Source of the DNA: Helicobacteraceae bacterium | Lineage (GTDB): Bacteria > Campylobacterota > Campylobacteria > Campylobacterales > Sulfurimonadaceae | Direction: 5' to 3' | NCBI GenBank assembly: GCA_947498025.1 | Contig: CANMJR010000010.1 | Coordinates: 17,789-81,788, forward strand | Length of the DNA: 64,000 bases | Part shown: piece after piece, positions 3,670 to 64,000 of the stretch | Position numbering within the stretch: position 1 is the stretch's first letter | Layout: each line of letters begins with the position of its first letter | Position numbers and translations under genes: made by a program | Notes under the pieces: model-generated | Databases searched by the model: none | What the model was told of the DNA's origin: nothing | What the model saw: the letters and a program-made list of their open reading frames with translations, nothing else

Positions 3670-3679
3670 TGTTCTAATC

Positions 3680-6302: not shown

Positions 6303-6313
6303 AAGTTATTATC

Positions 6314-7615
6314 CTATTTGAAGTGAACCATCGACATGCAACAAAATTCTTCACCCTTGTAAAACTCTACTCTGAAAATTTTATTATCTTTATCGACAGA
6401 AAAATTCTTATTCATAGATTTGAGATTTATCTTCATTCCGCTCTCGTTTGAGCTATTCTTTGATACAAATCCGATAACATTTATACGAAAATTTTTATCA
6501 TCCACTACCTTAAAATCGTCATTAACAAAAAAATCTGAAGATTTGTCTATGGAAGTTGCTTTGCCATCAATTTCCACATTAAACTTTTTAGGACAGCTCC
6601 CAGCCATCTTGAAGTATTCCGGTTTTATTGTTGTAATTTCTTTGTTTCCAATATAAGCAATATATGTTCCATTCACCTTGCTGATTCCACCCAAAGGGTT
6701 TGAAAAATCAAATACATTATCATTAGATTTTTTTATAGGAACATAGGCTAAATCTTTTTTTATATCATTTAACTTGAGTGACATATTGCCGTTTATAGCA
6801 AGGTTTCCATAATTGTTTATTAATTTGCCTATCTCCTCCTCTTTTAAACTGAAATCTTTTGTATAAGAAATATCCATAACTTTCATAAACTCTTCAACGG
6901 CCAAAAGGTGATAAAAAACTTTTTGAGAAAGAGAAGATAAATTTTTACTGCTCTCTATTGCAAATGCCGGTTTATTATTTGTTACTGCAAAATAAGTAAG
7001 GGAGAGTTTCATGGCCTCATCATCATATTTTGTATTGGTATTTCTTACATTAAAACTGTGATGTTCTTGCAGCAAATTTTTGTTTACATTATCTCTGACT
7101 TTAGAGGCAATGGTGTCCAAGTTTCCAAATGGCTGATTTTGTATAAGTTTACACTGGTCTATAACGCAGGTTTGTCCCCATGCGGTTGGATTAAAAATAT
7201 TTCCTTTATCTTCTTTTCTGTAAAAACCATGACCGTCATGCAAGTTTAAAACCAAAGAAACATTCTGTGCTAGAATAATTTTTTTTATCTCTCCTACAGT
7301 CTCTTTATCTTTGTCGCCGACTTCCATAAAGGAAAATTTTCTATTCATGTCACCGTTTATACCTCTAGAATCAGCTTTTATACTCTCTTTATTGAGATTT
7401 GGAACTATCCATAAGTTTTTTGACTTGATTTTATAGTGCGTGGCGAGTATAGATGCAGCAAAATAGCTGCCAGGTTCATCTCCATGGACTCCGGCTATTA
7501 CAAGTAGTGTAGTCTTAGAACCACTGTTCTCTTTCTTTATTAGGTTAATATTAGCAGATACATGAGCATAAGATACAATCAGTATAAAAAATATTTTAAT
7601 ACAAAGTTTATTCAT
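6314..7615 (-). CDS. pgp1: M14/M99-type murein carboxypeptidase, Pgp1/Csd4-like
   Basis: Signal peptide, HGDEPGS and NLHDGHGFY motifs; adjacent to Pgp2-like gene. Confidence 0.75.
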   Translation of the reverse strand: MNKLCIKIFFILIVSYAHVSANINLIKKENSGSKTTLLVIAGVHGDEPGSYFAASILATHYKIKSKNLWIVPNLNKESIKADSRGINGDMNRKFSFMEVGDKDKETVGEIKKIILAQNVSLVLNLHDGHGFYRKEDKGNIFNPTAWGQTCVIDQCKLIQNQPFGNLDTIASKVRDNVNKNLLQEHHSFNVRNTNTKYDDEAMKLSLTYFAVTNNKPAFAIESSKNLSSLSQKVFYHLLAVEEFMKVMDISYTKDFSLKEEEIGKLINNYGNLAINGNMSLKLNDIKKDLAYVPIKKSNDNVFDFSNPLGGISKVNGTYIAYIGNKEITTIKPEYFKMAGSCPKKFNVEIDGKATSIDKSSDFFVNDDFKVVDDKNFRINVIGFVSKNSSNESGMKINLKSMNKNFSVDKDNKIFRVEFYKGEEFCCMSMVHFK

Positions 7616-7623
7616 TCTTTAGA

Positions 7624-8586
7624 CTACTGATTTTCTGTAAATATTTTGAATTTATTATCTTTAGCAAGTTTAACCATGAGTGTTTTTTCACCGACAAATT
7701 TAAGTGTATCTGATGAATATACCTCTTTAAATGATATCTGATACATGTCCGGTGCACTAGGATACGGAACAACATTTATGCGGTCAAATATAATTGTTTT
7801 CTTCTCGGATTTACCAAATACTCTCTTTTTATAGGTTGTAAATGCACTGAAACTCATTCCATCATCTCTCATAAAATCCGGTGCATAAAAACCTAAATAA
7901 GTTTGGATATCATTATAGAGCCAAGCGTATCTCCATGCATAGAGTTGTGCTAAAAGTTCTGCGAGTATTTTTTTAGGAACATCTTTTTTTGTTTCACCGC
8001 TATTAATAATTAGCATTGTGTTCTCTATATCAATTCTTCTATCAAGGCACTCTAAACTTGGATTATTGATTGCTATACAGCCTTTTGTATAATCATCTCT
8101 TTTTTGATCCGTAGGAAGACCATGTATCCATATTCCGGAACCTCCTCTTCCTCTGTATCTGTCGTAGGTATTAGGGTAGGAAGTAACAAATGCAAGCGGT
8201 CCATAAAATGAATCCACTTTGGAGAGTTTTTTTGTTATTTCATAGACTCCAAGAGGCGTTGTTAAATCTCCCTCTCTCATCTTGTCGCCTTTCATTTTTC
8301 CTGTAAAAGCACTGTAATCTTTTGCAAATTCAAACTTTTTATTTTTATTTTGTTTGTACAAAACGAGAGTCGATTTCTCCTTATTACATGTCAAAACAGA
8401 TGAAAAAGTTTCTAAATAACCAAAAGTAGTATCTTTCCCTTCTAAAAATTCGCTCCAATACTCCTTTTTAGCCAGTTCTAAATCCATTTTCTTCTCTATA
8501 TCTTGCAGACCATGTGTTCTATAGTTCGTTAAAATATCACTAGCATTTACAGTTAAACTCAGTAAAATCAGAAATATTATTTTCAT
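7624..8586 (-). CDS. pgp2: YkuD-fold L,D-carboxypeptidase/transpeptidase, Pgp2/Csd6-like
   Basis: Motif IWIHGLPTDQKRDDYTKGCIAI (HG...S/TxGCI/R), signal peptide. Confidence 0.75.
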   Translation of the reverse strand: MKIIFLILLSLTVNASDILTNYRTHGLQDIEKKMDLELAKKEYWSEFLEGKDTTFGYLETFSSVLTCNKEKSTLVLYKQNKNKKFEFAKDYSAFTGKMKGDKMREGDLTTPLGVYEITKKLSKVDSFYGPLAFVTSYPNTYDRYRGRGGSGIWIHGLPTDQKRDDYTKGCIAINNPSLECLDRRIDIENTMLIINSGETKKDVPKKILAELLAQLYAWRYAWLYNDIQTYLGFYAPDFMRDDGMSFSAFTTYKKRVFGKSEKKTIIFDRINVVPYPSAPDMYQISFKEVYSSDTLKFVGEKTLMVKLAKDNKFKIFTENQ

Positions 8587-9491
8587 GCTTGGTATCCTAT
8601 CTCTTTTAAGAATGTTTTATCTTTTGTCCAACCTTTTTTTACAGTTACCTGAAGGTTTAAAAAAGCTTTTTTTCCGCTGAGTGTTTCTATTTTGGTTCTT
8701 GCATAGACCCCGATTCGCTTAATAGAATCACCACCTTTGCCTATAATTATCCCTTTTTGACTCTCTTTTTCTATAATGATTGTTGCATGGATTTTGTCTA
8801 AATTTTTTCCTTCCTCTATTTTGTCTATGATGACGTCCGACTCATATGGAATTTCGTCACTGACATTTTCAAATATACCCTCTCTGATAAAGCCGGCATA
8901 AATATCTCGCACAAGTTCACTTGTTAAATCTTCCGGATCAAATAGGTAGGGTGACTCGGGAAGATTCTTTGAAATTGTGTCAAGTAAATCTGTATGTCCT
9001 ACTTTTTTTGGTATTGCTACGGGAATAAGTGCTTCAAAATAGTCTGAAAATTGACTATAGGAACTGATTTTTTTAAAAAGTTTTTCTTGTGTAACTTGGT
9101 CGATTTTGCTGAGTACTACGATATGTTTTACTTTAGAATTGTTCAGCTTTAAAAATTTTTCATAATGCTCCAGGTTGTCGGTTACCGGAGCTAAATAAAC
9201 TATTAAGTCACAATCCCCCATCGCTTTTAAAGCTTCATCAAGCATAAATTGGTTTAAAATTTTCTCTCTTTCATGTAACCCAGGAGTATCAACAAAGATA
9301 ATCTGGGTATCGTTGTGCATAACTATCGCATTTGAGCGTTTTCGAGTGGCATTTGCTTTTTGGCTGACCATAGCAATTTTTTCACCCAAGAGAGAGTTCA
9401 TAAGCGTACTTTTTCCAGCATTTGGACGACCAATGAGAGACACGAAACCCGCCTTAGTGGCGGTATCTTTAGATAAACCTGTTTTATTCAT
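8583..9491 (-). CDS. era: GTPase Era
   Basis: GRPNAGKST, DTPGLHE, C-terminal KH domain IIIGKGGDSIKRIG. Confidence 0.95.
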   Translation of the reverse strand: MNKTGLSKDTATKAGFVSLIGRPNAGKSTLMNSLLGEKIAMVSQKANATRKRSNAIVMHNDTQIIFVDTPGLHEREKILNQFMLDEALKAMGDCDLIVYLAPVTDNLEHYEKFLKLNNSKVKHIVVLSKIDQVTQEKLFKKISSYSQFSDYFEALIPVAIPKKVGHTDLLDTISKNLPESPYLFDPEDLTSELVRDIYAGFIREGIFENVSDEIPYESDVIIDKIEEGKNLDKIHATIIIEKESQKGIIIGKGGDSIKRIGVYARTKIETLSGKKAFLNLQVTVKKGWTKDKTFLKEIGYQA

Positions 9492-9531
9492 TTTTTTCCT
9501 TTAAAAAAATTACCAAGTGACATGCTAACTG

Positions 9532-9668
9532 ATGTTACGCACTTTTATAAAAAAACTCGTAAAATCCCTTATTATTCTCGAAAAACAGAGTTTTTCGTAG
9601 CTTCAGGGGGTTGTAGGGACATATGTCCCTGCCACATAAACGGACGAGTTCGTTTATGTGCGTAACAT
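9532..9668. repeat. Dispersed structured repeat, copy A (11-bp TIRs, internal hairpins)
   Basis: ATGTTACGCAC (9532-9542) / GTGCGTAACAT (9658-9668); hairpins CGAAAAAC-AGA-GTTTTTCG, AGGGACATATGTCCCT, CACATAAACG-GACGAGTT-CGTTTATGTG. Confidence 0.8.
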
Positions 9669-10996
9669 TATAAAATATATCTTGATAAGTCGTTGTCTTC
9701 AACAATAATATCAAGCTTCTCATGCACAAACTCTGCTGTTATTACAAAGTCCTCATTTTTATGTTCGTCCGCATTAAAACTTATCTCTTCCAAAACTTTT
9801 TCTAAAACAGTGTGCAATCTTCTTGCACCAATGTCTTCAGTAACCTCATTTGCACGATGTGAAACTTTTGCGATAGCTTTTATTGCCTCATCTTCAAAAA
9901 TGAGGTTCACTCCCTCTACGCCTAAGAGCGCTTTGTATTGTGTAAGCAGAGAGTTTTTTGTTTGCGTTAAAATTTTGTAGAGCGTCTCTTCCGTGAGCGA
10001 TTCAAGCTCAACGCGAAGAGGAAATCTACCTTGAAGTTCAGGTATCAAATCGCTCGGTTTTGTAAGATGAAATGCACCTGCCGCAATAAAAAGAATATGG
10101 TCGGTATTTACAACTCCATACTTTGTTGTAACACTGCTGCCCTCGACAATAGGAAGCAAGTCTCTTTGAACTCCCTCTTTGCTAGGGTCATTTCTGCCCT
10201 GTGACTTAGAGCTGATAGCAATCTTGTCAATCTCATCCAAAAAGATAATTCCACCATCCTCAGCGCGTCTGAGTGCTTCGGCATGGATGTTTGTCATATT
10301 GAGAAGTTTTGAAGTTGCTTCATTTTTTAAAAGTGATTTTGCATCTTTTACGCTCATCTCTTTTTTATTATCTTCTTTGTTCATAGCTGTAAATATTTTA
10401 GAAAAAGATTCTTGAACTTTTGCCATCTCCGGCGGAAGATTTGTGTCATTAAACTCAATATTTATCTTATCAAATTCAATAGAGATAATTTTATCATCCA
10501 TCTCACCGTTTATAACTTTTTCTTCCATTGACTTTAAAATTTTTGCATAATCATCTTTTTTCTCTTGGCTTGCTTGTTCCGGCAGGGGAGGGAGAAGTTT
10601 TTCTACGATTTTATTGACAATATAGTTTTCTATTTTGTCTTTGTTTGTCTCTTCTTGCTCTGCTTTTACGAGGTTTATTGCATTTACAACCAAATCTCGT
10701 ACCATTGACTCAACATCTCTTCCGACAAAACCGACTTCAGTGTATTTGCTCGCTTCAACTTTTATAAAAGGGACTTTCATCATGTTTGCAAGACGTCTTG
10801 AAATTTCAGTTTTTCCGACACCAGTTGAACCGATCATAAGAATGTTTTTAGGCATTATTTCATCTTGAAACTCTTGGCTTAGCTGCATTCTTCTATATCT
10901 TGTTCTAAGTGCGAGAGCAATAGTTTTTTTGGCGTCTTTTTGAGAAATAACATATTTATCTAAATACTCGACTATCTCTTTGGGAGTTAAATTCAT
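9668..10996 (-). CDS. hslU: ATP-dependent protease ATPase subunit HslU
   Basis: [24 protein letters not shown]; next to hslV. Confidence 0.96.
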
Positions 10997-11538
10997 TCTT
11001 TTTCTTCCTCAAGCGTGAGAATTTTGATGTTATGATTTGTATAAATACAGAGGTCTGCAGCAATGCTTAAACTCTCACGAACCAACTCCTCTTCATCAAG
11101 CGAGGTGTGCTTTTTGAGCGCTCTTGCTGCTGATATTGCATAGTTTCCGCCACTTCCAATCGAGGCAATTTCCCCATCTTCGGGTTCAACGACATCCCCG
11201 TTTCCGGTTAAAATAAAAATATGTTCATTATTCAAAACAATCATCATAGCTTCAAGACGGCGAAGAACTTTATCTTTTCTCCATGCCTTAGAAAACTCGA
11301 CAACCGATTTTAAAATATCACCTTTTTTATCTTCTAAAAACTCTTCGAACATGTCAAAAAGATTAAAAGCATCGGCAGTACTGCCTGCAAATCCGGCAAG
11401 AACTTTGCCCTTGTGGAGTGTGCGAATTTTTGTGGCATTTCCTTTTAAGACGCTGTCTCCAAAAGTAACTTGTCCATCCCCGCCGATTACAGCTTTGTTC
11501 TTGCCTTTGTATGCAAGTATCGTGGTTGCATCAAACAT
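10993..11538 (-). CDS. hslV: ATP-dependent protease subunit HslV
   Basis: N-terminal threonine-peptidase pattern [26 protein letters not shown]. Confidence 0.95.
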
Positions 11539-11984
11539 TATTCGCCTTGAACATCCACATGTAGAGTCGCATGAATTCCGTGACCGAGTTTAAAGTCCAA
11601 ATCATGTTCTCCTACAGTTTTTATAGTCAGTTTATCTGTGATATGTTTTTTATCTATATCTATTTTATGTTGCTCAAAAAGGGCATGGGCTACTTCCTCT
11701 TTTGTGATAGAACCAAAGAGATGACCGTTCTGACCAAGCTTTTTAGTTATGATTATTTCTGCTTTATCAAGTTTTGACGCCAAAACTTTCAGGAGTGCTA
11801 TCTCCTCTTCTAAAGCTTTAGCATTTTGAATTTCTTCCTCTTTATGCTGCGCTAAAATTTCAGCAGTCGCATGTTTTGCAAAACCTTTTCCAATTAAAAA
11901 GTTTTTGCCGTAACCATCTTTTACCTCTTTCACTTCACCGGCTTTACCTAAACTTTTTACATCTTTTATTAATAGTACTTTCAT
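11538..11984 (-). CDS. rplI: 50S ribosomal protein L9
   Basis: [31 protein letters not shown]. Confidence 0.96.
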
Positions 11985-12005
11985 CTTTATTCCTTAATTT
12001 TATAA

Positions 12006-12788
12006 TTATCTTTTTATTTTTCCACTATAAGAAACAATACCATGGGATAAGTTGCCTATTTTTGTATAGCCCATGTCGGAAAGAATTCTTGCACAGTGTG
12101 CACTTCTGCTGCCAACATGACAGTAAACAATAATGTTTTCATCTTTGCCAAGGTTGGCTTCATCAAGCGTTTGGAAAAAACTGCTTGTCGGAACAAGTTT
12201 ATCAGCACCTTCGATATGACCCATTTTCCACTCCATGTGCTCACGAACATCCACAAGTTTAAAGTGAACCATTCCAAGTGAACGCGCTTCAAGAAGTGCA
12301 GTAAGTTCGTCAGAATCTAGTTCATGGTTATTCACTAAAGCTTCACACTCCTGTTTTGTAAGACCGCGAGAGTGTTGATGTACAACTTCTTCCATCTGGT
12401 TTTCTTGGCGCTTTGCAGCTGCGAACTCCGGTGTACAGAAAATTTGGCAGTGACAAACGCCATCTTCCGGAATCTCTTTTTCAATTGCAGGTGTACATGG
12501 ACACATTCTATCATCTGAACTTTTATAAACTCCATCCACTTGCTCTACCATGTAACAAGGACAAAATCTTTTGTTGTACATCATTTTATTGCGGGCAAGA
12601 CCCAGCTGTACGCCCTCATTAATCTCTTCTTGCGGATTGTATTCCCAATTAAATTGCTTCACTACTTTGTCTGTAAATTTAATTGTTTTTTCTAGTTCAG
12701 CTTGAAACTCAGGTGAATTCATATCTATTTTTATTATACTCATTGTTAAGTTCCTAATTATTTTTATTTTTACGAGCTTTACCGGCAA
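12006..12788 (-). CDS. ferredoxin-thioredoxin reductase catalytic-subunit-like domain fused to rhodanese
   Basis: CPC...CPC...CHC cysteine pattern followed by rhodanese domain with active-site CHVGSRS; true start probably ATG at 12743 (MSIIKIDMN). Confidence 0.85.
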
Positions 12789-13998
12789 TTATAAAGCGTA
12801 AAGCATTGAGTTTGATAAATCCCGCTGCATCTTTTTGGTCATAAACAGAATCCTCTTCAAAAGTACAATACTCCGGATTAAAAAGCGAATTTTCAGATGA
12901 ACGACCAACAACGCTCACAACACCTTTGTAGAGTTTTAATCTAACGCTTCCGGAGACATTTACCTGTGTTTTGTCAATTGCAGCCTGAAGCATTTCTCTC
13001 TCTGGGGCAAACCAAAATCCGTTATAGATAAGTTTTGCATAGCGAGGCATCATCTCATCTTTAAGGTGTGCTTCTTCACGGTCAAGAGTAATTGACTCAA
13101 TTGCACGGTGTGCTTTTATCATAATTGTTCCGCCCGGTGTCTCATAACATCCGCGGCTTTTCATACCGACAAATCTGTTTTCAACGATGTCTGCACGGCC
13201 GATTCCATGTTTACCGGCAATCTTATTGAGAGTTGCAAGCATAGTTGCAGGGCTTAACTCCTCTCCATTTAATGATATTGGGTCGCCGTTTTTGTATCCA
13301 AGTGTAATATATTCAGCAACATCCGGAGCATCTTCAGGTTTTGTCGTCCATAGCCACATGCTGTCTTCAGGCTCCGCATTTGGGTCTTCCAAAATTCCAC
13401 CCTCATAAGAGATGTGAAGAAGATTAGCATCCATAGAGTAGGGTGATTTTTTACCTTTTGTATCGATCTGAATGCCATGTTCTGCCGCATAAGCTAAAAG
13501 TTTTTCTCTTGAATTTAAATCCCACTCTCTCCATGGAGCGATAATAGTAAGAGTAGAATCTTTGCCTAAATAACCCATCTCAAATCGTACTTGGTCGTTT
13601 CCTTTGCCTGTCGCGCCGTGGCTCACGCCGTCCGCACCGGTAATATGAGCAATCTCCACCTGTCTTTTAGCGATAAGCGGTCTTGCAATTGAAGTTCCTA
13701 AAAGGTATTCACCCTCATAAATCGCATTTGCTCTAAACATAGGAAATACATAATCTTTTACAAACTCTTCTCTTAAATCATCAATAAAGATGTTTTCAGG
13801 TTTGATACCCAAGGCTAGAGCCTTTACGCGAGCAGGTTCAACTTCTTCGCCTTGACCGATATCAGCTGTAAAAGTTACAACTTCACACTTGTATTCATCT
13901 TGAAGCCATTTTAAAATAACACTTGTATCTAAACCGCCGGAATAGGCTAAAACTACTTTTTTAACATTTTTTTTCATGTAAAAAACCCTTATAAGCAA
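12754..13998 (-). CDS. argG: argininosuccinate synthase
   Basis: [32 protein letters not shown]. Confidence 0.97.
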
Positions 13999-14118
13999 AA
14001 TAATTGTCGCGATATTACTATAAAAGAGATTAAAAAATAGCTTGAATGCAGTTTTATTTAATGATAAAGTAGGGGATTGTTTTAGATAGTTATAAGATAA
14101 TAGAATACGAAATGTTGG

Positions 14119-14146
14119 CTCAAAAGGGCTTTATTACCCTTTTGAG
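14119..14146 (-). terminator. hairpin at flaG 3' end
   Basis: CTCAAAAGGG (14119-14128) / CCCTTTTGAG (14137-14146). Confidence 0.6.
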
Positions 14147-14526
14147 TCAAACAATATCCCCGTTACTTCTTTCATTTTTGGAAGAAAATCAGCTGCTTGT
14201 TCTGCCGGAAATCTTCGAATCATTTTATTCGTTTGCGCTTCAATTACAGATACATAAAAAACATCTTGTTGATCTACGCCAAATTTTAAGTTTGTGTTCA
14301 TCGGAGCCATCGCGTTATTTAGCTCTTTTACTAACGCCTCTACTTGCTCTTTAGAATTTATTTTTTCAGCTTTTTGCGTAGTACTTTGCTGCATCTCTTT
14401 TACAAGGTCAACTTTGGGCTGCTCCACTTGCTGAACCGACTGTTGTGTTTTTGCCATTCTTCCCTGCGACTCACCAGCACCCATATTAGTTTGTTGCTGT
14501 TTTGCTACACCTGCTATGCCATCCAT
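14134..14526 (-). CDS. flaG: FlaG family flagellar protein
   Basis: C-terminal FlaG pattern LKFGVDQQDVFYVSVIEAQTNKMIRRFPAEQAADFLPKM. Confidence 0.85.
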   Translation of the reverse strand: MDGIAGVAKQQQTNMGAGESQGRMAKTQQSVQQVEQPKVDLVKEMQQSTTQKAEKINSKEQVEALVKELNNAMAPMNTNLKFGVDQQDVFYVSVIEAQTNKMIRRFPAEQAADFLPKMKEVTGILFDSKG

Positions 14527-14566
14527 GACTCACTCCTCACCTTCAAGAATATTGTTGTTAGACAGA

Positions 14567-14593
14567 ATATCGGCTGTTAAAAAAATAACTTAA
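14567..14593 (-). promoter_or_regulatory. candidate sigma-28 (FliA) promoter for flaG
   Basis: Minus strand TTAAGTTA ... GCCGATAT, close to TAAAGTTT-N11-GCCGATAA. Confidence 0.5.
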
Positions 14594-14661
14594 ATAAATT
14601 AAATAATATTTTTTTACTTTATCTCTTCTAACTGCTACATATTTATGATAATCTTGCGTGC

Positions 14662-15867
14662 ATGAATGAATATATAAATCTATTAAAAAAAGAGCCGGTT
14701 TTAAGACGCCTCTCTTCTATACAGCTTATTGCATATTTTGGTGCTTGGTTTAGCAATGTTGCAATATACACCCTTCTTCTTGATATGAAAGTATCGCCTG
14801 AAATTGTTGCATTTGTGGCAATGCTCCATTTTTTAGCCGGTGTTATTCAAGCGCCGCTTTCAGGTTCTATTATAGATATGCTCAGACCTAAAAAATTGAT
14901 GCTCTCTCTTATCTTTGTACAAGTTTTGGCAACTCTATTTTTAATTCTGGTTACCGACATAAACGATTTATGGCTTTTGTATGTCCTGATATTTATTAAA
15001 ATGGCGGCAGCTAGTTTTTATTTTACTACCGAAATGTCACTTCTGCCAAAAATTCTTCATGGAAATAAACTTCAAAAGGCAAATGAGCTTCACTCTATAA
15101 TCTGGTCATTTTCATATACTTTAGGAATGGCTATAAGCGGTTTTGTGGTTTATATGCTCGGTATCAAAATCGCCTTTATATTGGATGCTCTCATGTTTAT
15201 TGTTGGTTTTTTCCTGCTTTATACTTTGGAGATTAAAGTTGAATTTCTAAAAAGCAAAGAGAATTTATTAGAGATGATGCGAGATACTTTTAGATACCTC
15301 AAAAGATTTCCGCATGCCATGCACCTTATGTTTGTTCATGCTTTTGTAGGACTCACTGCCTTTGATGCGCTTGTGGCTTTGATGGTTGATAAATATTACG
15401 CTTCTGTCATCGCCACCTCTTTGGCTTTGGGACTTTTACATGCTTCAAGAGCTTTAGGTCTTGTCATCGGTCCCGTAATTTTAGGCTCTTGGGTCAATAA
15501 CAAACGAGTGGTTGCCATTTTTATTCTGCAAGCAATCGCCGTTTGGTTTTGGGCGTTTATGATGCACAACTTTTATCTCTCCCTCTTTGCAAGCGTAATT
15601 GTCGGGCTATTTACTACAACACTTTGGTCCTACACATACACACTTCTGCAAAAAAATATAGAGGAGAAATATTATGGGCGAATCGTCGCATACAACGACA
15701 TGATTTTTCTAAGTTCGGCAGCATTGACCTCTTTTATGATTGGATATTTGGCTTCAAACGACTACTCTTTAGAATTCATAACCGTAGCCATCGGAAGCGG
15801 GTTTATTGTGGGCGGAGTCTATTTTGCATGGATACTCAAAACTCAAAATATAAAAGAGATTATATGA
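14662..15867 (+). CDS. MFS transporter
   Basis: 401 aa, ~12 TM segments, MFS-type loop (GSIIDMLRPKKLM). Confidence 0.85.
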   Translation: MNEYINLLKKEPVLRRLSSIQLIAYFGAWFSNVAIYTLLLDMKVSPEIVAFVAMLHFLAGVIQAPLSGSIIDMLRPKKLMLSLIFVQVLATLFLILVTDINDLWLLYVLIFIKMAAASFYFTTEMSLLPKILHGNKLQKANELHSIIWSFSYTLGMAISGFVVYMLGIKIAFILDALMFIVGFFLLYTLEIKVEFLKSKENLLEMMRDTFRYLKRFPHAMHLMFVHAFVGLTAFDALVALMVDKYYASVIATSLALGLLHASRALGLVIGPVILGSWVNNKRVVAIFILQAIAVWFWAFMMHNFYLSLFASVIVGLFTTTLWSYTYTLLQKNIEEKYYGRIVAYNDMIFLSSAALTSFMIGYLASNDYSLEFITVAIGSGFIVGGVYFAWILKTQNIKEII

Positions 15868-54866: not shown

Positions 54867-55793
54867 GTGCAAAATATCCCCCATATTCCAGTTTTACACG
54901 TGCAGGTTATAGATGCCTTTAAAGAGATAAAAGATGGAATAATTATTGATTGTACTATGGGATATGGCGGACACTCTTCTATGATACTCGAGGCAAATCC
55001 GCATGTAAAACTCATAGCAATTGATCAAGACCAAACAGCAATAGATTTCTCAACTTCAAGATTGGCAAAATATGGCGATAGAGTGAGCATTAGAAAAGGT
55101 CGTTTTTCCTCTGTAATAAAAGATATTTTGCAAGAAGTAGATGTGAAAAATGTGAAAGGAATTTTGGCGGATATCGGTGTCTCTTCTCTTCAATTGGATC
55201 AAAAGGAGAGAGGTTTTTCCTATGAGAGCGACAATCTTGATATGAGAATGGATAAAAATGCACTATTAACGGCTTCAAATGTTGTAAATGATTACTCGAT
55301 GCAAGAGCTAGAGAGAGTGCTTTTAGAGTATGGAGAACTTAGAAATTATAAAAAACTGGCATCCGAGATAGTAAGAAACCGTCCCTTTACTTCTGCAAAA
55401 GAGTTAAGTGACAGAGTGAAATCACACATGCCTCACGGTAAAAAGATACACCCTGCAACACTCCTAATGCAGGCAATTCGAATAGAAGTAAATAATGAGT
55501 TGGGGGAGTTAGAGTCTCTTTTAAAAAGCCTAGAAGAGGCAAAATTCCCGCAAGCCATAATCTCAATTATTTCATTCCATTCCTTAGAAGACAGAATTGT
55601 AAAACAGGAGTTTATCAAGTGGAGTAAATCTTGCATTTGTCCGGATGAGGCGATGCGATGTACATGTTCAAATAATCATAAACTCGGAAAAATTCTGACA
55701 AAAAAACCGCTTATGGCAGAAGAAAATGAGTTAAAAGAAAATCCAAGAAGCAGAAGTGCAAAGATGAGAATCTTTAAAATGAACTCAAAATGA
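54867..55793 (+). CDS. rsmH: 16S rRNA (cytosine(1402)-N4)-methyltransferase
   Basis: HIPVLHVQVIDAF, DCTMGYGGHSSMIL, SFHSLEDRIVKQEF. Confidence 0.96.
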   Translation: MQNIPHIPVLHVQVIDAFKEIKDGIIIDCTMGYGGHSSMILEANPHVKLIAIDQDQTAIDFSTSRLAKYGDRVSIRKGRFSSVIKDILQEVDVKNVKGILADIGVSSLQLDQKERGFSYESDNLDMRMDKNALLTASNVVNDYSMQELERVLLEYGELRNYKKLASEIVRNRPFTSAKELSDRVKSHMPHGKKIHPATLLMQAIRIEVNNELGELESLLKSLEEAKFPQAIISIISFHSLEDRIVKQEFIKWSKSCICPDEAMRCTCSNNHKLGKILTKKPLMAEENELKENPRSRSAKMRIFKMNSK

Positions 55794-56140
55794 GTAAAAA
55801 TTTGAGCGATTTTATGAATGAGAATGTAAATCAGATAGTAATTGAACAAATTAGTGAAAAATCGAGTGAAAAGAGTGAGCTTTTAGACGAAATTGAATCA
55901 GTTATAAATTCAAATAAAAGTCTTAGCTTTGCTAATTTTGGATATGTGTTGCTATCTTTAATTTTTGCTTCTATGTTTATTTTTCCAAAAATTTATATTC
56001 AGCAACAGATTTATTTTAAAAGTAGAGAAATATCAAAATTAAAAGATGAATATGATACTCTAAAAGAGGAAAATAGACTTATAGGCACTTCCGTGGAATC
56101 AATAAGGTTTAAAAATCAAATTCTTGATACGCTGTTTTAA
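55790..56140 (+). CDS. FtsL-like small membrane protein
   Basis: One TM followed by short coiled coil, directly downstream of rsmH. Confidence 0.5.
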   Translation: MSKNLSDFMNENVNQIVIEQISEKSSEKSELLDEIESVINSNKSLSFANFGYVLLSLIFASMFIFPKIYIQQQIYFKSREISKLKDEYDTLKEENRLIGTSVESIRFKNQILDTLF

Positions 56141-56246: not shown

Positions 56247-56323
56247 GGGTTCTTAGCTCAGTTGGTTAGAGCCCTCCGCTCATAACGGAGTGGTCGAGTG
56301 TTCGAGTCACTCAGAACCCACCA
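56247..56323 (+). tRNA. tRNA with CAT anticodon (Ile2 or Met), CCA encoded
   Basis: GGGTTCT...AGAACCCACCA acceptor, CTCCG-CTCATAA-CGGAG anticodon arm. Confidence 0.92.
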
Positions 56324-56393
56324 CTTTAAACTCCCTACACAACGCAATCACAAAGACTTTAACACTACAAAACACGATAAGCTTAAAATAGCT

Positions 56394-56417
56394 TACCCCA
56401 CTTTTTACCCCACTTTT
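56394..56417. repeat. tandem 12-bp direct repeat TACCCCACTTTT x2 near tRNA
   Basis: 56394-56405 and 56406-56417 identical; further TACCCCA at 56424. Confidence 0.85.
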
Positions 56418-56480
56418 GATAATTACCCCATAACGCCAATAACTCTATACTATACTTCTTTTAGGAAAAAATGACATCCT

Positions 56481-56501
56481 CCCCGACCCAGAGGGTCGGG
56501 G
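56481..56501. repeat. perfect GC-rich hairpin (IS200/IS605-end-like or terminator)
   Basis: CCCCGACCC-AGA-GGGTCGGGG. Confidence 0.75.
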
Positions 56502-56619
56502 TATCCCACTACAAATCAAATTTCAACTGACCTTGATGTGTTTTGACATAATCTTTCTCTGCAAAATGAAATAAGCCAAAAACAGCTTACCCTACTTAAT
56601 GATTTACATCGTATTTTGA

Positions 56620-57297
56620 TTATGTCTTATATAAATATTCATAATCCATTCTATCTCTGGTCTCGTCAATTAGTTCTGTAATAAGATTGTTTAAATCATC
56701 ATCAATTTTTAAAGTTTCACTGAATGCAGTATATAATCCATCTTTCATCTTATCCAATGATCTATCATCAATAATGGTATGATGAAAATTAATATATATA
56801 GTGTTAAATGTTAATCTAAAACCAGTTGAAATATTCATATTTAAAAATAAAAGATCTGATATGGTTAGTTGATTAATAAAGTAAGACATATTTTTTAACT
56901 CTGATGCAGATGTTATATTTTTAATTAAATATTCATAAAATTCATCCTGGAATTCTTCCAAATCTCCAATGCCGACCCATCCATGCAGTAGTACGTCATG
57001 AAAATAATAAGATTTATCTAATTGAACGTAATGGACAATGAAGTTATAAAATAAAATAGGGTTAGAATCCTTAGTATATAGAATATTCAATTTCTCAACA
57101 AAATTACTAATTGAAATAAAAATACTAGTGTTAACTACATCATATTTGGCTATTTTATTGGTTGATAAAAACTCTTCCAAATCTTCTTTTGTGAAATATT
57201 TTTCAAGTAAAGAAATAATTGGACGGTTTTCTTTTTTCCAATTGTAATAAGTTTTATCGGCTATATCTAATACTTTTTTTATTGATTCTTTCATCAT
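56620..57297 (-). CDS. hypothetical, possible HTH regulator of mobile element
   Basis: N-terminus IKKVLDIADKTYYNWKKENRPIISLLEKYF HTH-like; divergent from 57450. Confidence 0.5.
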   Translation of the reverse strand: MMKESIKKVLDIADKTYYNWKKENRPIISLLEKYFTKEDLEEFLSTNKIAKYDVVNTSIFISISNFVEKLNILYTKDSNPILFYNFIVHYVQLDKSYYFHDVLLHGWVGIGDLEEFQDEFYEYLIKNITSASELKNMSYFINQLTISDLLFLNMNISTGFRLTFNTIYINFHHTIIDDRSLDKMKDGLYTAFSETLKIDDDLNNLITELIDETRDRMDYEYLYKT

Positions 57298-57361
57298 CTA
57301 CCTTTTTAATATTGTCATATATACAATTATACTGTATTTTAATTTATTTTTATGTAAAAAA

Positions 57362-57390
57362 CTTGACATGGTTTTTTAAATTGTATATAA
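57362..57390 (+). promoter_or_regulatory. sigma70 consensus promoter
   Basis: TTGACA (57362-57367), 17-bp spacer, TATAAT (57385-57390). Confidence 0.75.
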
Positions 57391-57449
57391 TACACATATA
57401 AATAATTTATTCTTAAAATTATGTAAAATATACAAACAGAGGTTTAAAA

Positions 57450-57659
57450 ATGGTAGACAGAAAAATATCAAACACCGAGCTAGAGGCGAAAGGCTTGACG
57501 GTGGACGGGGTGGAAATAATACCACCTACACCAGAAACAACACAATCTCAAAAAAGAACTAAACGGGAAATAAGCTATTACAAGCTTTTTGGGCGAATAT
57601 ATTATCAAGTTTCAGATTTGATTGAATTTGCAAATAAAAGTAAAACTGTAGCAAGCTAG
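57450..57659 (+). CDS. excisionase/HTH-17-like small protein
   Basis: C-terminal YYKLFGRIYYQVSDLIEFANKSK winged-HTH-like. Confidence 0.5.
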   Translation: MVDRKISNTELEAKGLTVDGVEIIPPTPETTQSQKRTKREISYYKLFGRIYYQVSDLIEFANKSKTVAS

Positions 57660-57775
57660 TCGTTAGATCCTATATTCAGTTCTTGGCGGGACGCAAATTA
57701 TAGAGATCTAACTTTGAACAACAACACTAACTAAAGCATTGTGGACTGCAATTATACACCCACATACCTTATTTA

Positions 57776-58570
57776 GTGCCTAAAAATAAAAGGTACACCA
57801 CCATGAAAATTAAACTAAAAAAGAAAGAAAATCAATACGCACAAGTGCATGTTGACATGTTACGCAACAAAAATTTGAGCTTAAAAGCTAAAGGACTTGG
57901 AGCGGTGCTTGAGAGCTACAGCAATGACTTTGATGTGAGCCTAAAAAGTATAGAACTCAACTCAAACGACGGTGCAAAAAGCATTAAAAATGCGATTAAA
58001 GAGCTTGAAAGTGGATATTACTTATTTAGATTTCAAACTCATGATAGCAGTGGTCAATTTGTGACTTATTGGGCATTTGACAGCCAAAAACTAGAAATTG
58101 AATATTTAAAATCAATTATAAATGAACTCGAAAGAGTGGACTTAATCACGACAAGTGATCTATTGTCACCGGGGTACCAAAAAGGTGGGGCGGTGGAAGC
58201 AATCACCGGGGTACCGTTTACGGGGGGCGGCAAAACCACCGACGGTAAAAGCGCCGACGGCTTACGCACTACATATAATAATACTAACTATCAAAACATA
58301 GATTATAAAAATAAACTCTCTAGCGAAAGTGAGAGAGGGATTTTAAAATCTCTTCAATCTTTTAAATCTCATTTTATAGCGAAAAACACAAATCAGTCCT
58401 TTTGCACCAACGGAATAGGCTTTGAGGCTTCTACCCCTTTTAAAATTAACGACAGCGGCTATGTTGTCAATCTCAAAAGTAACAAGATACTCGACAAGGA
58501 GGAAGCACTCAAGATATGGGAATGGCTTTATGGCTTTTACAAAACACAAGCTACACAAGCAGGAGCCTAA
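57776..58570 (+). CDS. replication-initiator/HTH-like mobile-element protein
   Basis: NLSLKAKGLGAVLESYSNDFDVSLKSI...AKSIKNAIKELESGYYLFRF; start GTG 57776 or ATG 57803. Confidence 0.5.
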   Translation: MPKNKRYTTMKIKLKKKENQYAQVHVDMLRNKNLSLKAKGLGAVLESYSNDFDVSLKSIELNSNDGAKSIKNAIKELESGYYLFRFQTHDSSGQFVTYWAFDSQKLEIEYLKSIINELERVDLITTSDLLSPGYQKGGAVEAITGVPFTGGGKTTDGKSADGLRTTYNNTNYQNIDYKNKLSSESERGILKSLQSFKSHFIAKNTNQSFCTNGIGFEASTPFKINDSGYVVNLKSNKILDKEEALKIWEWLYGFYKTQATQAGA

Positions 58571-58662
58571 CTGCTCCTTACTATATCTTTATCTAAGCCC
58601 TATTAGTAGGGTTTACACGAGGGTTTACACCCGGTTTTTTAAATTATTATTGTTCAAAAGTC

Positions 58663-58770
58663 CATTACTATGACCCTCAGAGTAATGTAATGGCAATTGA
58701 GTATCACTGCTATCCAGGGGGCAGTGATATATAGATTTGATTTTGCATTTTTGCATAAAAAAGTGCAAAA
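58663..58770. repeat. three consecutive hairpins in 230-bp intergenic region
   Basis: CATTACT/AGTAATG; TATCACTGC/GCAGTGATA; TTTTGCA/TGCAAAA. Confidence 0.65.
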
Positions 58771-58799
58771 CAAAATTTATATAAAAAAAGGAAAAAACA

Positions 58800-59621
58800 A
58801 TGTCAAAAAAAGAACAATCAACGACAACAATCTTCGTCTGTATATCTAGTAAGGGAGGCGTCGGTAAAACGACAGTTTCAAACATGTTGGCTAGCTATAT
58901 ATACAACCAGACCAATACTCCGGTCAACTATTTTGAGGTTGACCAAGAGAACCAAAATGTAAAGAGCCTCTCAAAGAGCCAAATACTAAATCCAAGTTTG
59001 GTAGCACTTGAGAATCTTAAAAAACTTTTGGAGGAGTCAATCATGTGGGAGGGAGATACGGTCTTAGATATTGGCGGGAACGCCAGCACGACTACATTTA
59101 TCAACCATTTAAAGCTCACCGGTGGCTTCCTTGCTAAGACTATTTATTTCATCCCCCTAAGTGAGAGCGATCAAGATATCATCAATGCGAAAGACACGCA
59201 CAGCTCAATTCGAGAGTTTGATCAAGAGTCCCAAATCGTTTATGTTCTCAACAAATGTCAAAATAAATCAAATGTTGAATTAACAAATCGCCAATTTATA
59301 AACTTCCATGGTAGTGATATATTGGGAGTCGAGCCCACAACGATGGACAAACACACCACCTACATCGCCATGGACTACAACACTATTTACAATGTAACCG
59401 GGCGACTCGGCAAGACCATTTATGAGCTCAGTAGTGATAACTATGACGACGAGTACAAAACCGTCGCTCAGGAATTTTTCAAAGATAAATCCAATCAAGA
59501 CCTTTACAAGCAAGTTCGTAGGTTAATGTTTCTCAAGGAAATGACATCAATTGCACGAGAGGTGGTCGAGAAGGAGTATCTAGATTTATTTGCTCAAATC
59601 AAAAAAATCCAAAAGAGTTAA
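58800..59621 (+). CDS. ParA-family ATPase (MobD/StbB-like)
   Basis: SSKGGVGKTTVSNMLASY deviant Walker A; DIGGNAS. Confidence 0.8.
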   Translation: MSKKEQSTTTIFVCISSKGGVGKTTVSNMLASYIYNQTNTPVNYFEVDQENQNVKSLSKSQILNPSLVALENLKKLLEESIMWEGDTVLDIGGNASTTTFINHLKLTGGFLAKTIYFIPLSESDQDIINAKDTHSSIREFDQESQIVYVLNKCQNKSNVELTNRQFINFHGSDILGVEPTTMDKHTTYIAMDYNTIYNVTGRLGKTIYELSSDNYDDEYKTVAQEFFKDKSNQDLYKQVRRLMFLKEMTSIAREVVEKEYLDLFAQIKKIQKS

Positions 59622-59623
59622 AA

Positions 59624-60010
59624 ATGAGCAGCGAAATGACCTTTAAACAGGTCGAAGCCTTAATCGAGGAGATTAAAATCATCACACCCACTATCGAGAG
59701 CCTGCTCTCGGTGGCCAAAGATGTTAATGGCATTAACGTCCTCGCTGGTCAAAATATCAAAACACTTCAAACCACAATCAAAGAGTTTGAAAAAGTTTTA
59801 ATGACCGCGGTCGCCAAAGGCATCGATTCAAAAATCGAAAAGCTCAAAGAGTTTGACGAGTTTGAACGTCGAATCGTAAAAAATGTTCAAATCATCAAAA
59901 ACGCGGCAGACAAAATCAAGCCAATTCAAACAATCAACTCCCTCCTAACATTTGGAGTTGGTTTTTTAGTTGGTGCAATCGCCTTATTCTTAATTTTAAA
60001 GGGAGTCTAA
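59624..60010 (+). CDS. coiled-coil protein with C-terminal TM, possible mobilization accessory
   Basis: 128 aa, translationally coupled between ParA and coupling protein genes. Confidence 0.5.
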   Translation: MSSEMTFKQVEALIEEIKIITPTIESLLSVAKDVNGINVLAGQNIKTLQTTIKEFEKVLMTAVAKGIDSKIEKLKEFDEFERRIVKNVQIIKNAADKIKPIQTINSLLTFGVGFLVGAIALFLILKGV

Positions 60011-61672
60011 ATGGGCTATCAAATATTCCAAGAAACAGCCCTCAAAGCGAAGCTGGCAGGGGCTTATCTCAGTAAGGTTATCGAGTTCACGATTATTATT
60101 CAGGTGTTTATCTTCAGTTTTTATTTCACTCAAGCACTTAAAAAAGAAGGCTTTAATCCAGCGATTTACGCAAAATCTTTTTTTCATCAAAATTTGAGCA
60201 AGGAGGAAAGACATCACGAAGATCTACTTGTCCAAAACTATCAACTGCCCCTGATATACAGCTCTGTAATATGGTTTTTACCATTTTTAATTTTTTTGAT
60301 TTTTCAAAAAAAACAAAAAAACAAAGAAGAAAAAGAGCATAAAGGAGCAAAGCTAATCAGCACAAAAGACCTGGTAAAAGCGCTCAAAATCTACAAAAAC
60401 AAGTACCTCCAAATCGGCGGCTATAGCAAGCATACGCATATCCTGATAGAGGAGGATGATATCAATTACAAGAGGCACAAAGAGCAAGAGCTAGAATATC
60501 GCAAGTACACGATTGAAATCCCAGAAAAGTTTGAGACCAGCCACTTCGCGATAATCGGGCGGAGCGGGTCAGGAAAGACTAGCCTAATCAATCCCTTAAT
60601 TGAGCAGATAATTGACCGCCAAGACAGAATGATAATCCACGATTATAAACAGGATTTTTTCAAGAATTTTTACACCGAGGACATGCATATATTCAACCCT
60701 GCTATCGCTGATGTATGCTTGAAATGGAACATCTTCAACGACATATACAACCATGAGGATATCATCGCCGTCGCTCACTCGCTCATCCCGGCCGCGAGCG
60801 AAAAAGAAGACCCTTTTTGGAAAAACGCGAGCCGTGACATACTTATCGCGTGTCTGATATATCTAAGCACGATAAAGCAGACCAGTAACAAAGCTATCTA
60901 CTATCTAGTCAACCAGACCAATACGGAGATACAGGAGTATCTACTAAGTGTTGATACGACCGTCAAATATACTCATATATTCGAGAAAAGCAACGCAAAA
61001 ACATTGAATAGTGTCATGTCTGTATTCCGTACATACATCAGATGTTTCGACTATCTCAAGGATATTGACGGAAGCTTTAGCGTCAAAAAATGGGCGCAAA
61101 ACGGAGCATCGACCATCATAGTCATGAACGACGAGAGTATTAAGGATTCTATAGCACCGGCTCTCACACTCTTCATCGACCTCACTAGTCGTGCTCTGCT
61201 CATGCAGGAGGACCGTGACGACCGGACTGTGTTCATGCTTGATGAGTTCGGGCGGCTTAACCGCATGAATAGTGTAGTCGACCTGCTCACTAACGGTCGG
61301 AGTAAAGGCACATCAGTCTATATCGCGGCGCAAGAATTGGCACAAATCGACGAGAAATACGGCAAAAATGGACGAAAAACAATTATAAACAACTGCTCAA
61401 ACCAAGTGTTTTTCAGTGCGAACGATGCCGAGTCGGCCAAAGAGTTCGCCGCACAAATAGGCGAATCGGAAACTCTTGCAAAGGATGAAAGCATCCAGCA
61501 CAAGACCGAAGGGGACGACATGGATAGTCTCAACGTGAGAAATCATCTTCAGACCAAGACAGTAGTTCTAGCCAGCGAGATTCAAAATCTCAAAGAGCGC
61601 GAGTGTTTCGTAAAAATCGCCAATCAAAATTGGTGCAAAACCAAAGTCTACATTCAAAAAAAAGGAGTGTAA
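60011..61672 (+). CDS. type IV secretion coupling ATPase (VirD4/TraD/TrwB-like)
   Basis: Two N-terminal TMs, AIIGRSGSGKTSLINPLIEQ, FMLDEFGRLNRM, TNGRSKGTSVYIAAQ. Confidence 0.88.
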   Translation: MGYQIFQETALKAKLAGAYLSKVIEFTIIIQVFIFSFYFTQALKKEGFNPAIYAKSFFHQNLSKEERHHEDLLVQNYQLPLIYSSVIWFLPFLIFLIFQKKQKNKEEKEHKGAKLISTKDLVKALKIYKNKYLQIGGYSKHTHILIEEDDINYKRHKEQELEYRKYTIEIPEKFETSHFAIIGRSGSGKTSLINPLIEQIIDRQDRMIIHDYKQDFFKNFYTEDMHIFNPAIADVCLKWNIFNDIYNHEDIIAVAHSLIPAASEKEDPFWKNASRDILIACLIYLSTIKQTSNKAIYYLVNQTNTEIQEYLLSVDTTVKYTHIFEKSNAKTLNSVMSVFRTYIRCFDYLKDIDGSFSVKKWAQNGASTIIVMNDESIKDSIAPALTLFIDLTSRALLMQEDRDDRTVFMLDEFGRLNRMNSVVDLLTNGRSKGTSVYIAAQELAQIDEKYGKNGRKTIINNCSNQVFFSANDAESAKEFAAQIGESETLAKDESIQHKTEGDDMDSLNVRNHLQTKTVVLASEIQNLKERECFVKIANQNWCKTKVYIQKKGV

Positions 61673-61673
61673 C

Positions 61674-61826
61674 ATGAGTTACGACCACGATTACAATATC
61701 AACAATCAAGCCTTCGGGCGGAAGACTAATCTGCCGCCGCCCGACAAAAATTTCAAGGAAAATAAATTTATTATTTTTCTTTTCCTCGCCGCTTGTCTAG
61801 GTATTTACCTAGGTTTAAAATATTAA
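61674..61826 (+). CDS. small tail-anchored protein (absent from ORF list)
   Basis: 50 aa MSYDHDYNINNQAFGRKTNLPPPDKNFKENKFIIFLFLAACLGIYLGLKY; AAGGAG RBS. Confidence 0.65.
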   Translation: MSYDHDYNINNQAFGRKTNLPPPDKNFKENKFIIFLFLAACLGIYLGLKY

Positions 61827-61840
61827 AAAAAGGAAAAAAA

Positions 61841-62215
61841 ATGCTAGAAAATTTAAAAATGAAAACACTAGAGATAGACGGCAACGCCCTAAAATATTGG
61901 GCTCACATAAAAAAACATGAGGACGAAAAGTACATCACATTTGGAGTGAAGATTTATCAATATTTCATTCAAAAAGACGAAGATTTTTGCACAAGAAAGA
62001 ATTATTATGAGTACGTGAAAGCGCTTAGAATCGATGGTTTCGAGGAAATTGAGTTTTATTACGTCATGATGGCCGGAGCCACCATGAATGAGATACAAAG
62101 GATGCGAAAAACTAAGAACTATGAAACTGAAGAATCACAAGTTGAGAGGTTTGCGTTTATAGTTCGAAGCGTGCAAAAAGGCTTTTTAGCCTCTCACTAC
62201 GATCAAAAGGAGTAG
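61841..62215 (+). CDS. hypothetical protein
   Basis: RBS AAGGAAAA upstream, tightly packed same-strand gene. Confidence 0.55.
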   Translation: MLENLKMKTLEIDGNALKYWAHIKKHEDEKYITFGVKIYQYFIQKDEDFCTRKNYYEYVKALRIDGFEEIEFYYVMMAGATMNEIQRMRKTKNYETEESQVERFAFIVRSVQKGFLASHYDQKE

Positions 62216-62217
62216 CG

Positions 62218-62439
62218 ATGATAGATTTATGCTATGTGAAAAACAATCCGTACGAATTTAAAATTTGCGAAAATCAACATTTAAATTTAGGGAGCGAGAA
62301 AACATGTGAGAATGAAGATTGTAATAGCTCAACTCTTAGTTCTAGAAATGTCAAAAAATGGGCAAAAAAAGAGCAAGAGTTTTGGGCTGCCGATGGCTTT
62401 ATGAGCCAAGAGCAGGTTATGCTCATCCCGCAATTTTAA
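62218..62439 (+). CDS. hypothetical protein
   Basis: 73 aa, tightly packed. Confidence 0.45.
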   Translation: MIDLCYVKNNPYEFKICENQHLNLGSEKTCENEDCNSSTLSSRNVKKWAKKEQEFWAADGFMSQEQVMLIPQF

Positions 62440-62448
62440 GGAGGGCAC

Positions 62449-63054
62449 ATGAAAAAATTACTAATCGTTATATCGTTTTTCATGATTGCAGCACTAGCAC
62501 TAAACGCTAGTGCTGCAGGGCAATTTTTTGAGAAAATCGATGCTGCAACTTATACAGTTGTTGCAATCGATTCAAATCAAACCACTACATTTGCAACAGC
62601 AACTGCAGTTTCGCAAAATGGCTATTTGCTCAGCTTTGCACATCTTTTTACAAACAATCAGAGTGTTCAATATTTTGACAAAAAAACGGATAGTCTAAAA
62701 GATGTAAAAATCGAGCTTTTGGATTTTGAATCAGATATTGCAATTTTAAAAATAGATTTTTGTGATAATTTTTTTGAAATTGCTGGAGATGAACAAGTTT
62801 CAGATTTTGTTTTATTGGCTGATAAATCAGCAATGTTTAAACAATCGAAAAGTTACACAAACGTAGGATTTACGACTTTTCAAGACGATTCAAACATCAT
62901 TATTCGTACAATGATTGACTTAAAAACTGCTTCAGGTTCTTCTGTTGTAAACAACGATAATGGATATTTGATAGGTTTATTTGATGTAGCAGTTGATAAT
63001 CGAAGCGCAATCGTTAAAAAAATTCCGCAACGCATTAAAAAAATAGTGCAATAA
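62449..63054 (+). CDS. secreted trypsin-like serine protease
   Basis: Signal peptide; LSFAHLF (His), ESDIAILKI (Asp), TASGSSVVN (Ser) pattern. Confidence 0.7.
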   Translation: MKKLLIVISFFMIAALALNASAAGQFFEKIDAATYTVVAIDSNQTTTFATATAVSQNGYLLSFAHLFTNNQSVQYFDKKTDSLKDVKIELLDFESDIAILKIDFCDNFFEIAGDEQVSDFVLLADKSAMFKQSKSYTNVGFTTFQDDSNIIIRTMIDLKTASGSSVVNNDNGYLIGLFDVAVDNRSAIVKKIPQRIKKIVQ

Positions 63055-63055
63055 A

Positions 63056-64000
63056 ATGAAAAAAATAGCGCATCTCTTAATTTTTTCACTTTTTCTTTTT
63101 GTAATTTCTTTGTCAGCAAGTGATACAAGTGTAGAATTGCATATTAGATTTGGCTCAAATGTTGATTTGCTGACAGGCTCTAAAGTTACTGAGATGCCGT
63201 ATGGCTACTTCATTCCTGACTTTGGAAAGTCTAATATGAAAGTTATTGACCAGAAAAATTTAAGCTCTTTCGGGGATAAAAAGCTCTTAATAGGCTATGG
63301 TGTTTATGATATCAAAGAAGAGAATTGTCGTTATCTTGATGTTCCGGTTGCAGATTTTGATGTTGCTTTTACTAATAGATTTGTCAATGGCAATAATACT
63401 TACGCGCTAAGTAGAGACAAACTTACTTATTCCCAGTGCCTCGCAAAAACAGCCCTTTATAATGGATTTGTATATACCCCGAAAAATCTAGCTGAGCAAA
63501 ACCTAGTTAGATCAACATTGGGAGAGAACAAGGATATGTGGATTGGGTACAGCAGAACCGATTGTAATTCACCATATAAGACCTCTGAGCAGTTTATACA
63601 ATCTTATGAAAAATTCAACAATCCAGTAGAGCTATGTACGGACCAAAACGGATTCACATATATACCAAACGGAACAGAGCCGATAGGTGTAAATTTATGG
63701 GAGCGAGCGAGTCAGACTGAAACTCACTACTGCCCGATAAAAATAAACAGCCCTGATTATAAAAGACCAATAAAGTTTTGTATGCCGTGGTGGAGAGTGG
63801 AGAGAACTTGGAAGCTTGATAAAAATGAGAATATTTTTGAGTACAATGGACAAAAATTCGACTTTAGATACATGGGTTATTTAGTAGATTATCCTCAAGA
63901 TAGAACAATTTGTACAGTTGAAGACACAAGCGCTTTAAAGATAGATAAAACATTTAAGAGTGTTGTTAGAGCCAAAGTTCTTGATGCAACAATTGTAAAT
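63056..64000 (+). CDS. large exported protein (3' end beyond window)
   Basis: Signal peptide MKKIAHLLIFSLFLFVISLSAS; open to window end; Cys-rich, weak C-type-lectin-like CLAKTALYNGF...WIGYSRTDC. Confidence 0.6.
   Translation, partial: MKKIAHLLIFSLFLFVISLSASDTSVELHIRFGSNVDLLTGSKVTEMPYGYFIPDFGKSNMKVIDQKNLSSFGDKKLLIGYGVYDIKEENCRYLDVPVADFDVAFTNRFVNGNNTYALSRDKLTYSQCLAKTALYNGFVYTPKNLAEQNLVRSTLGENKDMWIGYSRTDCNSPYKTSEQFIQSYEKFNNPVELCTDQNGFTYIPNGTEPIGVNLWERASQTETHYCPIKINSPDYKRPIKFCMPWWRVERTWKLDKNENIFEYNGQKFDFRYMGYLVDYPQDRTICTVEDTSALKIDKTFKSVVRAKVLDATIVN

Follow-up and report, generated by a model that had tools for sequence, protein, structure and literature searches.

A 2017 review of integrative and mobilizable elements (IMEs) knew of no canonical IME with a MobF relaxase; it described putative Streptococcus IMEs that encode their own VirD4 together with a MobC relaxase, and already reported tandem accretion at one attachment (att) site by elements with distantly related integrases (PMC5704250). 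In Mesorhizobium, 24 MOBF IMEs were later delineated, several of them at tRNA genes including tRNA-Met, and those without traACD contain a virD4-like coupling gene (PMC8627217). Given these 24 elements we abandoned the view that MobF IMEs are unknown, which holds true of the 2017 review. For Sulfurimonas, a literature search gave little on integrative elements. Here we analyzed a 64,000-nt stretch of contig C10 from a Sulfurimonas genome (the window; coordinates without a contig label refer to it, and its final base is the final base of the contig, C10:81788). We conclude, with a probability of about 0.75, that positions 56277–64000 are the left part of an IME in a CAT-tRNA gene, that its right part lies on contig C45, and that it borrows the mating pore of a helper. 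The tRNA is labelled tRNA-Met below, a name that here stands for either an elongator Met or a lysidine-modified Ile tRNA.

MOBF IMEs having already been published, the element is of a known kind and a new example of it. Like the Mesorhizobium MOBF IMEs (PMC8627217), it is chromosomal, combines an integrase with the MOBF relaxase assigned to it, shows no mating pore in its sequenced parts, and uses a tRNA-Met site. The Mesorhizobium IMEs, set apart by their description, mostly encode a Ti-like TraA with traCD, whereas the coupling ATPase found here is of the F/TrwB type and the host belongs to the Campylobacterota. The domain architecture of the coupling ATPase and the relaxase-helicase is shared with TraD-TrwB and TraI-TrwC of F and R388, but sequence identity is low, and no pore operon adjoins these genes in the known sequence. 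With the Streptococcus IMEs (PMC5704250) the element shares a coupling protein of its own, so that only the pore would be borrowed; the relaxase family and the host phylum are different.

The earlier note, made from the window alone, had proposed an IME or an integrative and conjugative element (ICE) integrated at the 3′ end of a CAT-tRNA and had left the type undecided. ARAGORN recovered this tRNA as the only one in the window (acceptor stem GGGTTCT/AGAACCC, encoded ACCA end), and a whole-genome search with the tRNA and its flank retrieved its 3′ half at two more sites, each on the minus strand of C45 (E ~1e-27). The att repeat at the tRNA (attL) is identical to C45:9755-9822(−) at 67/68 bp and to C45:1598-1663(−) over 66 bp exactly. 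About 70 bases past the tRNA lies the 24-base repeat TACCCCACTTTTTACCCCACTTTT, and a second copy with one mismatch is located at C45:9959-9982(−), beside the tyrosine integrase gene int3, just inside the att repeat ending at 9822; both copies face the same way with respect to att. Across the 2.93-Mb genome, exactly two sites match this repeat with up to two mismatches, while a reversed-pattern control gave none; both are positioned like integrase arm sites, which they presumably are. Since the att repeat is shared and the arm repeat is exclusive to the two ends, the left end in the window and the right end on C45, with int3 distal, would fit one element. In the orientation of the tRNA, C45 encodes the MobF relaxase, a helix-turn-helix (HTH) protein, a 105-amino-acid (aa) protein, a serine resolvase, a 165-aa HTH-like protein, a 277-aa protein, int3, a MazF-like toxin, and att (9822-9755). 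The relaxase (at least 1293 aa) can be aligned with solved TraI/TrwC structures, its frame is open up to the contig end, and through the C45 link we assign it to the window's element. Of the features that define an IME, a recombinase of its own (int3), att repeats flanking the element at a specific target and, by the presumed linkage, a relaxase of its own were found. No integrase or relaxase is visible in the window because C10 stops at the window's last base; the integrase, the relaxase and the second tRNA 3′ end that the earlier note had wanted sought downstream are all on C45, and integration at the tRNA 3′ end is supported both by these parts and by elements with the same ends in other Sulfurimonas genomes.

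Six further genomes of the genus encode relatives of int3 at 70–83% identity, and all seven int3 proteins at ≥70%, the present one included, adjoin the att repeat of this tRNA. In five of these genomes (G055, G139, G131, G037 and G173), the same CAT-tRNA bears an element with a near arm repeat, a far-end int3, a second arm repeat, and an att copy. The direct repeats match at 51/51 bases in G173, 50/50 in G131, 49/49 in G055, 80/86 in G139, 45/49 in G037 and 49/52 in G112. The two ends of the G037 element are on separate contigs, and its tRNA and distal copies differ pairwise in the T-stem, as would fit if integration exchanged the 3′ half of the tRNA. Upstream of the tRNA, this window (54867-56140) and other genomes of the genus share an rsmH/ftsL-like gene pair; the chromosomal flank downstream is not conserved among relatives, and the empty site therefore cannot be reconstructed by synteny. 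Genes of the window's left end are joined with int3 in one element in G139, G037 and G173 (xis and rep in all three, the HTH gene in two). The relatives' named records include Sulfurimonas sp. STC_53, RIFOXYD12_FULL_33_39 and one Arcobacter metagenome-assembled genome. In the latter, Arcobacter sp. NORP14, an int3 relative (76%) is accompanied by the arm repeat and by the 3′ end of a CAT-tRNA, which suggests either spread beyond Sulfurimonas or misbinning.

The elements of G131 and G173 have both ends on one contig, measure ~20 kb and ~17 kb, respectively, and carry full mobilization genes, encoding an integrase, an xis-like protein, relaxase-type genes and a coupling ATPase. The G131 element (Sulfurimonas sp. 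RIFOXYD12_FULL_33_39, MICF01000010) shares with ours the tRNA, arm repeats at both ends, int3 (76%), the xis-like protein (83%), the N-terminal part of the HTH protein (67%), a MobF relaxase, a type IV coupling protein (T4CP) and ParA. It differs in its reversed internal gene order, in its relaxase of 519 aa versus at least 1293 aa here, and in having, where the window encodes its exported proteins, a Toprim protein and an exported protein of 824 aa. The G173 element (C1:2222333-2239496 of a single-contig genome) has in common the tRNA, arm repeat, HTH, xis-like, Rep-like (59%), ParA and T4CP genes, followed by int3 (78%), the second arm and att with a 51-bp exact repeat; at the relaxase position, however, it encodes, in place of MobF, a NikA/MobC-like accessory protein together with a protein of 831 aa that has no Pfam match.

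Mechanistically, int3 and the 69-aa xis-like protein would act by recombination at the anticodon loop, both to insert the element and to excise it, so that the tRNA is restored, and excision would join the int3 end to the window's left end across GCTCATAACGGAGTGGTC (attP). The relaxase would then nick an unmapped origin of transfer (oriT), the element's own TraD-type ATPase would feed the nicked strand into a pore encoded by another element, and the Rep-like and ParA proteins may stabilize the excised circle. A BLAST comparison of C45 with C53 for a shared non-coding oriT gave extended similarity of the gene regions only and no defined candidate. C53 carries a second MobF relaxase (C53:7803-13751), which shares 87% identity with the C45 relaxase but has different chromosomal surroundings that include no tRNA.

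Several points weigh against the IME interpretation. The join between C10 and C45 is unsequenced, both contig ends lie inside genes and share no overlap, and the end stretch of C45 is identical to C53, both stopping at the same base, so that the assembly evidently broke at a repeat. Pore genes could lie in the gap, whatever its length, the assembly yielded no att for the far end of the array, and the excised circle, the oriT and transfer are steps that we infer. If the missing middle held an F-type mating-pore operon, possibly part of contig C21, the element would be a complete ICE, which we consider unlikely. In favor of the ICE, an F-type TraD-like coupling ATPase together with a MobF relaxase is the pairing of F, C10 stops within an exported-protein gene, and C21 carries TraB- and TraC-like genes. 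VirB4 of the CagE/TrbE type (PF03135) is absent from the genome, the sequenced parts of the element on C10 and C45 contain neither VirB4 nor TraC, and the sole TraC-type ATPase found is on C21 with TraB- and TraG-like genes. Because its first bases fall within a long TraG-like gene, C21 was tried as the direct continuation of C10; this was rejected, as the 52-kb contig has its own tyrosine integrase (28.2–29.5 kb), its own coupling-type ATPase (8236-10341), no overlap with the end of C10 and no copy of the tRNA att. Moreover, related elements with both ends known span only ~5–20 kb, and no TraC/VirB4 gene was present among the proteins scanned from the G131 and G173 elements. C21 is a possible pore helper, though nothing ties it to the window's element. 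Its cluster (C21:1-29502) is of an unusual conjugation type, in which F-type-like genes (TraG-like, TraB, TraC, TraG-D_C ATPase) are interspersed with MoxR, double-GGDEF and two-component genes and the tyrosine integrase.

It is less likely still that the element on C10 and the right half on C45 belong to separate elements, so that the window genes would not work with this relaxase and int3. In favor of this, several elements do stand in tandem at the site, window genes and relaxase genes were not seen on one contig, and C53 has a second MobF relaxase. Against it, no more than three att copies are present in the assembly, the arm sites number exactly two, one per end, and the union of window-type genes with int3 in G139, G037 and G173 argues for one element. 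Least probable, in our view, is a decayed, immobile island or prophage remnant. An IS200/IS605-like hairpin end CCCCGACCCAGAGGGTCGGGG without a transposase gene (~56472-56508) and the relaxase sequence repeated on C45 and C53 would agree with decay; against it, the int3 and coupling ATPase frames are intact and that of the relaxase is open to the contig end, all three align to functional domains, and the att copies are nearly identical. PHROGs gave only replication-related or unknown matches and no virion genes among the proteins scanned. A 32-base stretch at the hairpin region is repeated exactly at C40:6618-6649. The IME, as opposed to an ICE, is the most likely type of the element.

The earlier note had also described the genes behind the tRNA as a compact same-strand block. 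The open reading frames (ORFs) agree with that description with one exception, the first gene, which lies on the minus strand (Table 1). This gene encodes a 225-aa regulator, whose N-terminal relatives (45–68% identity) adjoin xis-like genes in G131, G037 and G173. For the excisionase-like protein, family searches gave no convincing match; it recurs, however, in elements with the same integrase, at 83% identity in G131, 59% in G139, 57% in G037 and 54% in G173. The predicted replication-like protein, ParA ATPase, accessory coiled-coil/transmembrane (TM) protein and VirD4/TraD coupling ATPase were all recovered. Relatives of the Rep-like protein were found in G139 (61%), G173 (59%) and, weakly, G037, and distant ParA relatives (23–29%) in the G131, G037 and G173 elements, while the coiled-coil/TM protein had no convincing match in Pfam, NCBIfam or PHROGs. 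The coupling ATPase clears the Pfam gathering thresholds (267 bits versus 20.5 for PF10412; 94 versus 22 for PF12696), aligns with solved TrwB (6e-25), and matches TraD_Ftype (TIGR02759) at 4.8e-64 with 217 bits, under the curated cut-off of 521. Judged by these matches it is TraD-like, outside TIGR02759 membership; it had no relatives on the genome contigs scanned. Candidate His/Asp/Ser residues of the trypsin-like protein were picked by eye, and a structure prediction for the truncated exported protein (63056-63999) was set aside at a mean predicted local distance difference test score (pLDDT) of 31.

Table 1 Features of the element and its neighbors at the tRNA site; locations without a contig label refer to the window.
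Feature	Location	Strand	Basis or remark
tRNA gene, anticodon CAT	56247..56323	+	ARAGORN; integration target, regenerated at left end
attL core, direct repeat from anticodon loop to tRNA 3′ end plus 21 nt	56277..56344	+	Repeat match to C45
Arm-type repeat TACCCCACTTTTTACCCCACTTTT, presumed integrase arm site	56394..56417	+	Two genomic copies; related elements keep it at either end
225-aa DNA-binding-like regulator, divergent from xis-like gene	56620..57297	−	ORF; weak HTH match
69-aa xis-like protein (putative recombination directionality factor)	57450..57659	+	Relatives in int3-type elements
264-aa HTH_36/replication-initiation-like protein	57776..58570	+	phrog_4707, 3.1e-12
ParA-type ATPase	58800..59621	+	Pfam CbiA (ParA/CbiA) 7.5e-6
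128-aa coiled-coil protein, C-terminal TM segment	59624..60010	+	Sequence features
VirD4/TraD-type coupling ATPase, N-terminal TM segments	60011..61672	+	TrwB_AAD_bind 3.1e-79
50-aa putative membrane peptide	61674..61826	+	ORF
140-aa protein	61793..62215	+	No match in Pfam, NCBIfam, PHROGs, PADLOC
73-aa protein	62218..62439	+	ORF; no Pfam match
201-aa exported trypsin-like protein, predicted signal peptide	62449..63054	+	Pfam Trypsin_2 4.6e-5, below cut-off
Exported cysteine-containing protein, cut by contig end	63056..64000	+	Weak Lectin_C 0.005, below cut-off
MobF relaxase	C45:15617-19495		TrwC domain 3.2e-63
Tyrosine integrase int3	C45:10531-11619		Phage_integrase 4.7e-22; adjoins attR and arm site
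attR	C45:9755-9822	−	67/68 bp to attL
Complete 8.2-kb element between two att copies	C45:1598-9822		int2 and NACHT gene
Start of third element: int1, xis-like protein	C45:1-1582		Runs off contig

At least three elements seem to be stacked at the tRNA gene, the window's element being the first. Behind it on C45 follows the 8.2-kb element with int2, an xis-like HTH protein, a phage-GPA-type Rep, a ribbon-helix-helix protein, a NACHT-pentapeptide protein (1031 aa, no PADLOC match), toxin-antitoxin genes and att (1663-1598); a relative of its left end is at the tRNA in G021. The integrases int1 and int2 belong to a second family, relatives of which lie directly beside the same tRNA in G144 (91% to int1), G021 (96% to int2), G048 and G100, and two integrase families therefore use one core. 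Extra copies of the tRNA 3′ end were found in at least ~20 other genomes of the genus, and elements at this site carry restriction-modification, NACHT and toxin-antitoxin genes. An int3-type element in G139 (2654-14993) bears a type IIG restriction enzyme, an AAA protein of PADLOC class PDC-S06, a PDC-S73 protein and a SoFic-type Fic protein.

The mobilization modules of the related elements are MobF and T4CP in G131, MobF in G037, Mob_Pre/MobA-like in G139, where genes for restriction and further defense functions adjoin it, and NikA/MobC-like with T4CP in G173. Relatives of int3 at only 54–57% identity had a tRNA-Val(GAC) alongside at five loci out of six in which tRNAs were sought, and some of those on the tRNA-Val(GAC) side (55–57%) share the same arm repeat. 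We lean toward a Sulfurimonas-centred IME family, whose members keep one recombination module (int3, xis-like protein, HTH protein, paired arms) and vary in the mobilization module joined to it (MobF, Mob_Pre/MobV-like, NikA/MobC-like with T4CP, or none), the integrase clades are split by target (≥70% at tRNA-Met, 54–57% mostly at tRNA-Val(GAC)), and members at the tRNA-Met site stack in tandem with unrelated elements of the second integrase family on the same core. That mobilization modules are exchanged while the recombination module stays fixed, and that targets split between tRNA-Met and tRNA-Val, are the more interesting points, and they rest on few genomes. The element bears on the drivers of gene exchange in Sulfurimonas, a widespread sulfur oxidizer, whose tRNA-Met site is often occupied by such elements, and the int3 family, split over two tRNA targets, would permit direct tests of integrase target choice.

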